The notes beneath the pieces are model-generated. The model ran no database searches, was not told where the DNA came from, and worked only from the letters and a program-made list of their open reading frames with translations. The position numbers were made by a program, and so were the translations under genes. 34,835 bases of DNA from Myxococcota bacterium. Its GTDB lineage: Bacteria > Myxococcota_C > UBA6777. Of the stretch, positions 8,917 to 33,107 are shown piece after piece (position 1 is the stretch's first letter; each line of letters begins with the position of its first letter). The stretch lies in assembly GCA_963169055.1 (NCBI GenBank), contig CAUJFU010000134.1, positions 1 to 34,835 of the forward strand. The letters run 5' to 3'.

Positions 8917-9351
8917 ATGGCTGGTAAAGCTGGCGGCCAAGACGACGATGTGATCGTCGATATCAACGTCACACCGCTTGTTGACGTGGTGTTGGTGTTG
9001 TTGATTATCTTTATGGTGACGGCGCGCCTGATGGTGCCGCCTGCGATCCCTGTGGAGCTTCCCAAAGCCAGTACAGGCGAGGGAGGGGAGCCTTCTTCTT
9101 TGGCGATTACGATCTCACGCGCAGACAAAACCTTACCCGAGCGTTACTACATCAATGGGACGGAGGTGACGCCGCCCGCTTTGCGCGAGCGGGTGTCTTC
9201 GGAGCTCAAGAAAAAAGGTAGCAAAAAGCTCCAAGTGGTGATCGCGGCAGATCAGCTTGTTCCGCATGGGAAGGTGATGTGGTTGCTCGATACGCTCCGT
9301 CAATTGGGTGTAGAACAATACGCATTCAATATCAATCCGAGTGCGCCTTGA
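8917..9351 (+). CDS. exbD: ExbD/TolR biopolymer-transport protein
   Basis: The 144-residue protein begins with a short polar arm and then DINVTPLVDVVLVLLIIFMVTA, the single membrane helix of ExbD/TolR. Asp23 is the conserved proton-carrying residue of the family. A periplasmic domain follows (~45-144) with ITISRADKTLPERYYINGTEV and VVIAADQLVPHGKVMWLLDTLRQLG, matching ExbD folds. ExbD dimers sit inside the ExbB pentamer and pass proton-motive energy to TonB. It lies 22 bp after exbB and 13 bp before tonB on the same strand, so it is certainly in the same transcript. CAAGGAG lies 10 bp upstream of ATG 8917. Confidence 0.95.
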   Translation: MAGKAGGQDDDVIVDINVTPLVDVVLVLLIIFMVTARLMVPPAIPVELPKASTGEGGEPSSLAITISRADKTLPERYYINGTEVTPPALRERVSSELKKKGSKKLQVVIAADQLVPHGKVMWLLDTLRQLGVEQYAFNINPSAP

Positions 9352-9364
9352 GGAAGGGGACGTC

Positions 9365-10222
9365 ATGAGGAGCCTACTCGCGACGTTGCGAGAGAAAAAA
9401 CTGCTGCGTTGGAGCGTTGCTTCCGTTGCATCGGCGTTGCTGCATGCAGGGTTAGCTTTTGGCTTGATTCTTTACAAACCAGCGCCACGCCCACCGGAGC
9501 CGAAAAAGGTGCATTTTCGCTTGCTCAAGCCGCGCCCCGAACCTCCGCGCCCTGCACCGCGCCCACCCGAACCTCCGCCCGTTCCGCGACCTGTGATCCG
9601 CCCGAAGCCACGGCCCAAACCGCGCATCCGCCCGCGCATCCGCCCTCGTCCCCGACCGCGTGCTGTTCGGCCCATCCCACCGCCCAATCAACCTCCGCGA
9701 CGCCCACCCCCACGCGCCGAAGAAGCACAGCCGATCTTTGGCGTCTCGATGGATTCTGTTTCGCAAAAGCCCGGTGGGCGCAACGCCATCCGCGTTGGAA
9801 ATACGCTGATGAAAGAACCCGATGGGCGTTTTACTCCTCCCAGTCAGGTTCGCTCTTACAACGCCCCTGACGGCGAGGCGGGAGATCCCCAAGGGACGGG
9901 GAAAAAAGATGTGTTTCAGCCTATCCCCGACTTCGAGTTGGATCAATACCCCCAAGAGGTTCAATGCCCCAAAGCCAACTATCCCCCCGAAGCCGAGCGG
10001 CTCGGCATCCAAGCGGTGATCGTTTCGAGCCTAGAGATCCGACAAAACGGACGAATCCGCCGTGTCCGTGTGATCAGCGTTCGACCCGATGGGGCCGACA
10101 AGTATGGATTTTCAAAATCTGTTCGTGCGGCTTTGATGCGTTGTCGGTTTCGAGCCGCACGTTACAAAGGAAAAGCTGTCGACGCCGTCATCCGCTACAC
10201 CTCTCGTTTTGTTCCAGAGTGA
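9365..10222 (+). CDS. tonB: TonB energy-transducing protein
   Basis: TonB couples the ExbB/ExbD motor to outer-membrane receptors. The 285-residue protein has one N-terminal membrane segment (~15-37, SVASVASALLHAGLAFGLILY), a long Pro/Arg-rich spacer (~38-125, many PRP/PKP units) that spans the periplasm, an intermediate region, and a C-terminal TonB domain (~200-285) with NYPPEAERLGIQAVIV, LEIRQNGRIRRVRVISV and MRCRFRAARYKGKAVDAVIRY. The spacer is unusually Arg-rich rather than Lys/Glu-rich. Start ATG 9365 is supported by GGAAGGGG (9352-9359); an in-frame GTG at 9341 overlaps exbD and lacks a site. The partner receptor gene lies downstream, separated by an inserted element. Confidence 0.93.
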   Translation: MRSLLATLREKKLLRWSVASVASALLHAGLAFGLILYKPAPRPPEPKKVHFRLLKPRPEPPRPAPRPPEPPPVPRPVIRPKPRPKPRIRPRIRPRPRPRAVRPIPPPNQPPRRPPPRAEEAQPIFGVSMDSVSQKPGGRNAIRVGNTLMKEPDGRFTPPSQVRSYNAPDGEAGDPQGTGKKDVFQPIPDFELDQYPQEVQCPKANYPPEAERLGIQAVIVSSLEIRQNGRIRRVRVISVRPDGADKYGFSKSVRAALMRCRFRAARYKGKAVDAVIRYTSRFVPE

Positions 10223-10242: not shown

Positions 10243-10453
10243 TAGGATAGGAGTTACGCAGTTGAAGAGGGAAAGCGTGAAGAATCAACCCGTTGTAGGG
10301 GCGGTTCGCGAACCGCCCGCGCCCGAACATCGGCCTTTTTCGTATCGAACTGCGTAAGCCCCGTATTGGCGAACAGATCGCAGGTTTTTCACGCCGACGA
10401 CTCTGTCGCTTGGCATGGCGCGAACACGGGTTTTTTGCGTAGTCCCTATCCTA
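10243..10453. mobile_element. MITE-like element with imperfect terminal inverted repeats
   Basis: The left end TAGGATAGG..TACGCA (10243-10260) and the right end TGCGTA..CCTATCCTA (10436-10453) are inverted copies matching at 15 of 21 positions, including perfect TAGGATAG/CTATCCTA. Inside, TTACGCAGTT (10254-10263) has an exact inverted partner AACTGCGTAA (10348-10357), and a perfect 20-bp palindrome lies at 10299-10318. No transposase frame fits in 211 bp, so this would be non-autonomous. It separates tonB from the receptor gene and ends just before that gene's ribosome-binding site. Target-site duplications were not evident. Confidence 0.55.
10296..10318 (+). repeat. GTAGGGGC-type palindrome
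   Basis: GTA is followed by GGGGC and a perfect 20-bp palindrome (10299-10318, GGGCGGTTCG and its complement). A run of five T occurs about 15 bp later (10334-10338), too distant for a standard terminator, though the structure may weaken transcription into the receptor gene. Confidence 0.65.
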
Positions 10454-10470
10454 CTGAAAGGAAGAGTTGT

Positions 10471-13224
10471 GTGTTGAAGATCACGGCGGACGTACGGGGC
10501 CGCATGACGCAAAAGCCGAAACGACCGAAGGCACAGTGGTTTGCTCTGCTTTGTTTCTGTTGGACGGTGGGGAATCTCTCGTTGATCTTGCCGAACGCAT
10601 CGGCACAACCCACGCCGCCAAACACAACAAAACCCGCCACTCCCCAAGGTTTTGTTCCTCCGAAGCTTCTACAATTTGTACAGGCTCCTTATCCCAAAGA
10701 AGCCTTGAAAGCCCGGAAAACAGGGGCTGTTTTGTTGCAGCTCATCGTCGATGCAACAGGCAAAGTGGTGAAAGCAACGGTGGTTGAATCCGCAGGGGCA
10801 GAATTCGATCAAGCGGCTCTTTCAGCGGTACAACGCTTTGCGTTTCAACCCGCCACCTTCAAAGGCAAGCCCGTTCCTGTGCGCATCGCGTATCGGTATC
10901 GTTTTACGCTCCAAACGATCGCTGTTTCGCGACCTGCCACACGGCCCAAACCTACGTCCCTGCCTGCCACCCAAACGGCCTTGCCTCCGCCGCGTCGAGC
11001 GATCGAATCACGCACTCTCGATAGTGCGGGGGCCTCTGTGGTTCGTGGGTTTTTGCGTGAGCGCGGAACTCGCCGTCCGATCGAAGGTGCGCCAGTCTAC
11101 TTGCTTGGGCGGAAACGCTACCAAGCGATCACCGATCCCGAAGGAGCCTTTTCGATCCCCAACGTGCAGCCCGGGCGTTATCGTTTTGTTGCGCCTGTTC
11201 CCAACTTTGAAAAGCTCCGTCAGACCGTCACCGTGGCACGCAAAAAAACACTCGACTTGCAAGTCTACTTGCGCTCCACCTCGGAGGAGCTGTTTCAAAG
11301 TGTGACGCGAGCCAAACGCCAACGCCTTGAGATCCATCAACAAAGCCTTCAAGAAGAAGAGATCCGCATCGCCCCCGGAACCCAAGGCGATCCGCTCAAA
11401 GTCATACAAAACCTTCCCGGGGTTGCGCGAACTCCCCTCAACGCAGGGGCCTTTATCGTGCGCGGCTCTGCCCCGGGAGACACACGCACCTATCTTGACG
11501 GCCATCAGATCCCGCAGTTGTACCATTTTGGCGGTCTGACCGCCGTCGTCAACGGCGATATGGCCCAACGCCTCGACTTTATCCCGGGCGGTTTTAGTGT
11601 CGCATACGGGCGTGGGATGGGCGGTGTGATCCATCTGCAAACTCGCCCCGGAAAAGATCGTTTTCATGGTTATGTGGATCTGGATATCATCGATATCGGG
11701 CTTTTTCTTGAGGGGCCTTTGTGGAAAGGCGCAACCTTTGTGGCTTCTTTTCGGCGAAGTCACTTGGATCTGTTTCTGAATCTGATCTTGCCGAAGAATC
11801 GGGCCTTTGATCTGACTGTCGCGCCGCGTTATTACGATTACCAGTTCAAGATCGACTGGAACGTTGATCGGCACAACCGCTTGACGCTGATGTACTTTGG
11901 TTCGGGTGACAAGCTGTCCTTCTTGCGCAGCGAACCTGTGGGGCGCTCCGATATACGCGGAGATTTTCTATTTTATACGGCGTTTCATCGATTGAATTTC
12001 TCTTGGGCTTTTCGGCTAGGCACCACTTTTGAACACGATCTCGCCGTACAGATCGGCACTACCAATACTGACACCAAAGGCGGTGATCAGTTTGCATTTG
12101 GATTGTTCGAGCCGATCTTGTCGATCCGCGATGAGATGCGTTGGACTCCCTTCAAGCAATTGATGATCCGAGCGGGTCTTGATATGCGCCTTCGCTACGA
12201 AGAACAGCGCTTTGATGCCCCGCCTTCGACGCCGCGTGTTGGGGACGGAAACACGGGGGGAACGAACATCTTGCGCGATCTCAAGGAAAATCTGATCAAT
12301 ACATGGATTCCTGAACCTGCCCTGTACATCGAGGCCGCGTGGATGCCGATCCCTTCGTTGCGGATCGTACCGGGGATACGGGTTGATTTCTTTGGACGCA
12401 CCAAAGAATTTACTTTTGATCCGCGCTTCAACGTGGCTTGGGACCCGATCAAGATCTTGACGCTCAAGGCGAGTGTGGGTCTGTTTTCGCAGCCTGCCAC
12501 GGGGCTCAATTCTTCCGAGATGTTTGGAAACCCCGATATTCGGGCAGAAAAGGCGATGCACTACGTTCTTGGTGCAGAAGTACGTTGGACGGAGTTCTTT
12601 GCGACCGAAGTCAACGGATATTACAAAGATCTGAGCGGTTTGGTGGTGAGCAGCAGTGATGTGGTGGTGCGCAACGGTCAAGAAGTCCCAGAGCGCGTCA
12701 CCAACAAGGGCCAAGGTCGTGCCTATGGTGTCGAATTCTTGATCCGTCACAAACCACACGGAAAATTCTTTGGATGGATCAGCTATACACTCGGTCGTTC
12801 CGAGCGGTTGAATCGCACCACGCAAGAGTGGGAGTTGTTCAACTTTGATCAAACGCACATCTTGACGTTGCTTGGGGCTTACAAGATCGGTTGGGGTCTG
12901 ACGTTGAGTGCGCGTTTTCGATTGGTTTCAGGGAATCCGTACACGCCCAATATAGGCGGGATCTACAACGCAGACTCGTTTAGTTATTTGCCGATCCGAG
13001 GCAAGACCAACTCTGCACGCGCCGAGCTTTTCCATCAACTCGATCTGCGCCTTGATTACGAATACGCCTTCCCAACGTGGAAAATGATCTTTTACCTAGA
13101 CGTCCAGAACGTTTACTACCAACTGAACCAAGAAGGTCGGATCAACAATTATGACTACACCAAACAAGCCCCCCTTACGGGCATCCCGATCTTGCCTTCT
13201 ATCGGGATTAAAGCGCAGTTTTGA
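10471..13224 (+). CDS. TonB-dependent outer-membrane receptor with an N-terminal TonB C-terminal domain
   Basis: The receptor (917 aa) starts with a signal peptide (WFALLCFCWTVGNLSLILPNASAQ). Next comes a complete TonB C-terminal-type domain, ~66-146 (APYPKEALKARKTGAVLLQLIVDATGKVV...VQRFAFQPATFKGKPVPVRIAYRYRF), then a Pro-rich linker, a carboxypeptidase-regulatory-like beta domain (~190-270, VVRGFLRERGTRRPIEGAPVYL), a plug (~295-400, GDPLKVIQNLPGV, GAFIVRGSAPGDTRTYLDG), and a beta-barrel ending in IGIKAQF with a terminal Phe as BAM requires. The substrate is unknown. GTG 10471 is chosen for AAGGAAG 6 bp upstream; ATG 10504 is the main alternative. It probably works with the exbB-exbD-tonB genes just upstream. 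The domain order is unusual. Confidence 0.93.
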   Translation: MLKITADVRGRMTQKPKRPKAQWFALLCFCWTVGNLSLILPNASAQPTPPNTTKPATPQGFVPPKLLQFVQAPYPKEALKARKTGAVLLQLIVDATGKVVKATVVESAGAEFDQAALSAVQRFAFQPATFKGKPVPVRIAYRYRFTLQTIAVSRPATRPKPTSLPATQTALPPPRRAIESRTLDSAGASVVRGFLRERGTRRPIEGAPVYLLGRKRYQAITDPEGAFSIPNVQPGRYRFVAPVPNFEKLRQTVTVARKKTLDLQVYLRSTSEELFQSVTRAKRQRLEIHQQSLQEEEIRIAPGTQGDPLKVIQNLPGVARTPLNAGAFIVRGSAPGDTRTYLDGHQIPQLYHFGGLTAVVNGDMAQRLDFIPGGFSVAYGRGMGGVIHLQTRPGKDRFHGYVDLDIIDIGLFLEGPLWKGATFVASFRRSHLDLFLNLILPKNRAFDLTVAPRYYDYQFKIDWNVDRHNRLTLMYFGSGDKLSFLRSEPVGRSDIRGDFLFYTAFHRLNFSWAFRLGTTFEHDLAVQIGTTNTDTKGGDQFAFGLFEPILSIRDEMRWTPFKQLMIRAGLDMRLRYEEQRFDAPPSTPRVGDGNTGGTNILRDLKENLINTWIPEPALYIEAAWMPIPSLRIVPGIRVDFFGRTKEFTFDPRFNVAWDPIKILTLKASVGLFSQPATGLNSSEMFGNPDIRAEKAMHYVLGAEVRWTEFFATEVNGYYKDLSGLVVSSSDVVVRNGQEVPERVTNKGQGRAYGVEFLIRHKPHGKFFGWISYTLGRSERLNRTTQEWELFNFDQTHILTLLGAYKIGWGLTLSARFRLVSGNPYTPNIGGIYNADSFSYLPIRGKTNSARAELFHQLDLRLDYEYAFPTWKMIFYLDVQNVYYQLNQEGRINNYDYTKQAPLTGIPILPSIGIKAQF

Positions 13225-14335: not shown

Positions 14336-14384
14336 CGGCCAAAGGTCTTTGGAGCGGTAGGGGGTGGGTTTGGAAAACGTAGAG

Positions 14385-14451: not shown

Positions 14452-14607
14452 GGCAAAAGCAGTTCTTTGTTTGCAATATAGGAGTGGTGCCGTTGGGCAG
14501 ATACCCGTGTTCGCGGATGCTCAAGCGAGAGAGTTGTGGGTGTCAAAACCGATGATCTCTTCGCCAATACGGGGTCCAGGGGCGATAGTCCCTTGCGGGG
14601 TTTGGGG

Positions 14608-14679
14608 CAGCACCCCATCACATAAACCAAGCAGCACCCCATCACATAAACCAAGCAGCGCCCCATCACACAAACCAAC
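14608..14679. repeat. 24-bp tandem repeat, three copies
   Basis: Copies at 14608-14631 and 14632-14655 are identical (CAGCACCCCATCACAT, then AAACCAAG); 14656-14679 differs at three positions. The period keeps frame, so open frames cross it on both strands, but none looks like a real gene. Confidence 0.85.
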
Positions 14680-32638: not shown

Positions 32639-33085
32639 GTGTCGAGAGAAGAGAGCGGGCAGGTTCGATCGCGGATGGAGTTTCGTGTGCGGTACGTGGA
32701 GACCGATCAGATGGGGGTGGTGCATCACGCATCGTATCTGGATTGGCTGGAAGAAGGCCGCATGGACTATATGCGCAAACGCGGGTTGTCGTACGCAAAA
32801 ATCGAAGAGATGGGGTTTTTCTTGCCGGTGGTGGAGTGCAAAGTGCGTTATTTGGCTTCTGCACGTTTTGAGCAGGAGCTTGTGTTGTTTTCGTGGATCA
32901 AAGAGATCCAGCCGTTGCTGGCGTTGTTTGCGTATCGTTTGGAGGACAAGGCCAGCGGTCAGTTGTTGTTAACGGGGCATACAAAACACGTCTGTGTGAC
33001 GCGTTCGGGGGAAGTCCAAGAGATCCCGCATGTGTGGGTCGAATCTCTCGCACCCGGGTTGTTGGGGTCTTTCGATCTCTCCTAG
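32639..33085 (+). CDS. YbgC/4-hydroxybenzoyl-CoA-type acyl-CoA thioesterase
   Basis: Hot-dog fold thioesterases of this group hydrolyse acyl-CoA. The 148-residue product has the signature VRYVETDQMGVVHHASYLDWLEEGRMDYMR, where the Asp of the ETDQMG motif is the usual catalytic residue, and the closing strand LLTGHTKHVCVTRSGEVQEIP. The start is uncertain: GTG 32639 has GGAAAGG about 10 bp upstream, while ATG 32675 lies at the domain edge. It lies 22 bp after the Nudix gene on the same strand. E. coli YbgC sits with tol-pal genes, but none is here, so the substrate is open. Confidence 0.88.
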   Translation: MSREESGQVRSRMEFRVRYVETDQMGVVHHASYLDWLEEGRMDYMRKRGLSYAKIEEMGFFLPVVECKVRYLASARFEQELVLFSWIKEIQPLLALFAYRLEDKASGQLLLTGHTKHVCVTRSGEVQEIPHVWVESLAPGLLGSFDLS

Positions 33086-33107
33086 GACTTAAGCGGTTGC
33101 TTTGTTT

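Follow-up and report, generated by a model that had tools for sequence, protein, structure and literature searches.

In a 34,835-nucleotide stretch of DNA from a Myxococcota bacterium, the whole of which is called the window here, a 211-bp block without any gene inside is found at positions 10243-10453. It lies between two genes of the iron-uptake type, tonB (9341-10222, forward strand; TonB_C, PF03544) and the gene of a TonB-dependent receptor (10471-13224, forward strand) with TonB_C, CarboxypepD_reg and Plug domains. Three in-frame start candidates are present in the receptor reading frame (GTG at 10471, TTG at 10474 and ATG at 10504), and the gap to tonB amounts to 248-281 nt by choice of start codon. 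The starts are preceded by GGAAGAG at 10460-10466, which lies about 10 bases beyond the end of the block. Over 10366-13224, the receptor shows near its N terminus a TonB C-terminal-type domain of its own, ahead of CarboxypepD_reg and Plug, and its N-terminal part also matches in relatives from other genera.

The three measured features that an earlier sequence-only reading had attributed to the block were all found again as described. Its ends form imperfect terminal inverted repeats (10243-10263 against 10433-10453, 15 of 21 matches), a score that came up once when the block was put through 20,000 mononucleotide shuffles. The 10-bp inverted pair, TTACGCAGTT, is exact (10254-10263 and 10348-10357), a perfect 20-bp palindrome, GGGCGGTTCGCGAACCGCCC, occupies 10299-10318, and the absence of a gene was likewise confirmed. 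The limits of the block had to be corrected, as the element proper stops at 10449 (CCTAT) and the outer TAGG and CCTA, which are inverted and form no direct repeat, belong to the flank. In addition, the same reading had proposed two overlapping nested units (about 10254-10357 and 10243-10453); in their place, two different repeats joined at 10359-10361 were found.

The left repeat, termed unit A, extends over 10247-10361 on the forward strand and is a copy of a 118-bp family, with 111 of 118 identities to the family consensus over 10247-10364. Its left terminal inverted repeat, ATAGGAGTTACGCAGTT, lies at 10247-10263 and its right one (10348-10361, reverse strand) is cut off at the fusion, which leaves the copy without the last ~6 bases of that repeat. 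The palindrome at 10299-10318 is a constant part of this family. The right repeat, unit B (10359-10449, reverse strand), is an inverted partial copy, comprising the first ~99 bases, of a second family of about 171 bp, and the part kept in the window begins at base 73 of the consensus, read in reverse, and continues to its end. It carries the same terminal repeat as family A with an 8-base deletion inside it, and this degenerate outer right repeat, GCGTAGTCCCTAT, is found at 10437-10449. Three bases at the fusion point, 10359-10361, are common to both units.

The identity of the two halves as separate dispersed repeats follows from their distribution. When the block was used as query against the window's own genome, about 39 scored matches besides the block itself fell on the left half (query 15-129, 84-97% identity), and the right half (query ~127-204) has matches of its own elsewhere, mostly in the orientation opposite to that of the neighbouring left half. 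With a 76-base probe across the join, bases 1-37 matched copies of unit A and bases 35-76 matched copies of unit B, while the window alone spanned the join. The block is one nearly full family-A element fused to half of a family-B element. Further copies, which the sequence-only reading had proposed to look for across the genome, are many.

Family A was represented by 52 copies of 118 bp with a mean identity of 92.9% to the consensus, and family B, with a 171-bp consensus, has the same 17-bp ends as family A and a different interior. The end pattern ATAGGASTNACGCNGTT, allowing at most one mismatch, gave 231 matches in the window's own genome and 220 in its sister species of the same genus (MAG.451, here G001), against none for the reversed control. 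Five genomes of the phylum were scanned with the strict form of the pattern, which was found in these two and was absent from the other three, from two genera. The right-end pattern of unit A was also compared with 84,980 species genomes, a set that may omit the records of the window's own genome, and matched in MAG.451 ("Myxococcota bacterium") alone. These copy numbers were derived from counts of pattern matches and from about 1.27 Mb of DNA that was fetched because it contains copies. GC content was 53% for A and 55% for B, against 55% for the DNA sampled; neither family shows the AT-richness that is typical of MITEs without being essential to them. All but one of the 83 placed copies lay outside called genes, and the exception is a pair with degenerate ends and apparently false. 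The simple gene caller often puts starts too far downstream, and distances to starts were not used.

Two further traces of family B were observed in the window. Downstream of the receptor region, positions 14476-14650 hold a second, diverged copy (best match 14505-14617, 83%); the sister species differs in sequence after TTTGCAATATA, and this copy may be another species-specific insertion. A solitary family-B end of 25 bases (92%) lies at 33083-33107 with no partner.

Both families have been mobile, as indicated by target duplications, intergenic copies and exact empty sites in the sister species. Of the end pairs that face inward, 60 span 112-122 bp; 24 of these are flanked by exact 4-bp direct repeats and 17 by 3-bp repeats, most of which by inspection become 4-bp repeats if the terminal base of the element is assigned to the target. 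Duplications of 4 bp are present for other copies of both families. Exact empty sites, in which the duplicated bases are present just once, were found in the other species for an A element of G001 (CCTG), a B element of G001 (CTTG) and a B element of the window's own genome (GCGA). Across all fetched DNA, nine elements had an orthologous stretch that aligns without the element and a few sites were filled in both species; some of the nine aligned through diverged flanks, and it is the three exact cases that carry the argument. Adjacent A and B elements 3-4 bases apart were also observed (L176 3748-4042, L188 9381-9671 and L193 9199-9489).

Both families thus look like bacterial MITEs. They are shorter than about 500 bp (118 and ~171 bp), non-coding, bounded by terminal inverted repeats, dispersed and intergenic, and copies other than the one in the block add target duplication and empty sites; at the degenerate copy studied here, no target duplication is visible. 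The proposal of a non-autonomous, MITE-like element is upheld by the many copies, the common terminal inverted repeats, the 4-bp target duplications and the exact empty sites elsewhere. As far as the searches show, A and B are two new MITE families whose kind is already known, new being meant relative to the genomes scanned here.

It is very improbable that the units are instead REP- or BIME-type repeats whose mobility depends on a RAYT (Y1) transposase. Their central palindrome, clustering and intergenic location look REP-like, and the palindrome recurs in dispersed copies in other genomes. REPs as generally described lack long terminal inverted repeats and target duplications, and in this respect REP and BIME elements differ from A and B, whose long end repeats, constant lengths (118 and ~171 bp), 4-bp target duplications and exact empty sites argue against such an origin. 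What the two kinds have in common is that they are intergenic, palindromic and present in high copy number (PMC2817692).

Further parallels are found among other small repeats of bacteria. The Chunjie element of Geobacter uraniireducens is short and non-coding with terminal and direct repeats, and as here it has dozens of intergenic copies along with partial ones, one of which interrupts an uptake operon (PMC10969869). It differs in its length of 178-235 bp, and reciprocal fusions at an orthologous site are not among the features that the review describes for it; the two are likened here by description (PMC10969869). In the same way, the Correia element of Neisseria is a multicopy MITE found mostly just upstream of genes, with stable RNA hairpins and reported inversion, as here; it too is likened by description, and it differs in its unrelated host and its known promoters, IHF site and RNase III cleavage (PMC10969869). 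Finally, the BOX, RUP and SPRITE repeats of Streptococcus pneumoniae are different small repeats that cluster and insert into each other, but here it is two families with identical terminal repeats that became fused halves (PMC10969869).

Since A and B have the same terminal inverted repeats, one transposase acting in trans most likely moved both. No autonomous element bounded by these ends was found among four transposase families (DDE_Tnp_1, IS1380, DDE_Tnp_1_6 and DDE_Tnp_1_2) in the two genomes of the genus, which are draft assemblies. DDE_Tnp_1 had no match in the window's own genome and five in the sister species, none of them bounded by these repeats, DDE_Tnp_1_2 was present just as a fragment in the sister species, and IS1380- and IS1182-type families were absent from both. 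Inward-facing end pairs were listed up to 2.5 kb and a subset was read. A 2-kb candidate of the sister species (C102) was rejected, as it holds a gene for a cysteine-rich protein between two A ends. In this species, at L122 1010-1042, a lone A end runs directly into GAAAAGGAAAAAAGGATG, apparently the ribosome-binding site and start of the gene for a 628-amino-acid cysteine-rich protein, as if the element end supplied the translation start region.

The sequence-only reading had suggested that the element split an operon, and this receives structural support from three genomes that represent two further genera of the family, in which tonB and the receptor gene abut: they are 5 nt apart in G002, overlapping in G003 and 11-14 nt apart in G004. 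In the comparison with relatives for an empty site, which that reading had also proposed, the genes abut in other genera, and in the sister species the site is filled. There, the left part of an inverted B up to CCCCGTATT is fused to an inverted A that is without its first ~26 bases. In the window, A is fused to an inverted B from CCCCGTATT onward, and the complementary B parts of the two species meet at the same nine bases. The block is not conserved as an ordinary leader in distant relatives. Further along the same locus of the sister species (L085 10754-11558), some 800 extra bases were observed between the match to window position 14352 and its continuation, and the window is without them.

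The best explanation, to which a probability of about 0.85 is given, is that the block is the remnant of two non-autonomous MITEs, laid down by insertion of B, insertion of A into B and then separate trimming in each species. The order of events, the deletions between terminal repeats and the mobilisation in trans are inferred. An ancestor of the genus would first have acquired a B element, in reverse orientation, in the junction of tonB and the receptor gene, and an A element would then have inserted into it near CCCCGTATT. In the lineage of the window, recombination between directly repeated terminal repeats may have removed the left half of B; in the sister lineage, the right half would have been removed likewise, and A was presumably inverted in one of the two. 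No intermediate nest, in which a complete A sits inside B, was observed.

A composite built elsewhere and inserted as a single A-B unit is unlikely by comparison. It finds some encouragement in adjacent A-B pairs (L176 and L188) that have a short linker and shared outer direct repeats, as if mobilised together as one unit. Against this origin, no second copy of the A-B fusion was present among the scored matches in either genome, the outer flanks at the site form no direct repeat, and in the sister species this position is occupied by the B half that complements the one in the window. It is more doubtful still that the leader is recurrently rearranging, with the common terminal repeats letting A and B recombine in place and the fused or inverted leader differing per species and perhaps per strain. 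If true, this would generate heritable variation in the expression of a TonB receptor.

Under the preferred reading of two successive insertions, and judged from the gene order in relatives, the tight spacing of tonB and the receptor gene must have been ended by the insertion. In place of tight translational coupling to tonB, the receptor gene would likely have gained a structured leader of 248-281 nt that has a ribosome-binding site of its own. Whether the block has in addition been co-opted as a regulatory leader, whose hairpins or internal promoter set receptor expression, is a separate matter that is compatible with the two-insertion history and stands as a tentative possibility of rather low probability, though more probable than either a ready-made composite or a rearranging leader. 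The block could act as a terminator, provide an RNase III site or hide the ribosome-binding site. Such a role is suggested by the position of the block, which stops about 10 bases before GGAAGAG, and by RNA folding: the RNA of family A is much more strongly folded than its shuffled versions (z -5.6 to -6.7) because its ends pair, and the block reaches z -2.5, the leader of the sister species being less folded again. In the latter (L085 6840-6880), the inverted A places CCTTTTCAA shortly upstream of the receptor's TTGAAAGGAAG; both pair in the predicted fold, and this pairing could mask the ribosome-binding site. Correia elements act in this manner, and promoters, IHF sites and RNase III cleavage are among the regulatory effects reviewed for them (PMC10969869), which serve here as leads. 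On the contrary, scans of the block for consensus promoters and terminators found none, an Rfam search gave no match of note, and both sequence and fold at this place differ between the two species. An orientation bias of unit A towards downstream genes, which seemed likely in the first 20 loci, was not borne out, with 13 of the copies examined in the same orientation as the genes and 9 in the opposite one.

The two transposon families add to a poorly studied uncultivated lineage, and the searches described here found them in a single genus. The locus provides a worked example of MITEs that separate a tonB-receptor pair and then apparently fuse in place, based on two species and three outgroup genomes with abutting genes. 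This insertion history is instructive, though not unprecedented.

The central palindrome of family A was also observed well beyond the genus. Its core occurs 78 times in the window's own genome and 82 times in the sister species, and a 21-base version is a dispersed repeat in unrelated genomes too. In a sample of 290 genomes, the family-A palindrome GGGGCGGTTCGCGAACCGCCC (window 10299-10318) was present exactly in nine unrelated ones (G052, G141, G278, G044, G013, G059, G171, G230 and G285). It is high-copy in some of them, with 115+110 matches in G052 and 57+57 in G141 (both strands of the palindrome counted), and it often lies within GTAGGGGC...GCCCCTAC in otherwise different surroundings.
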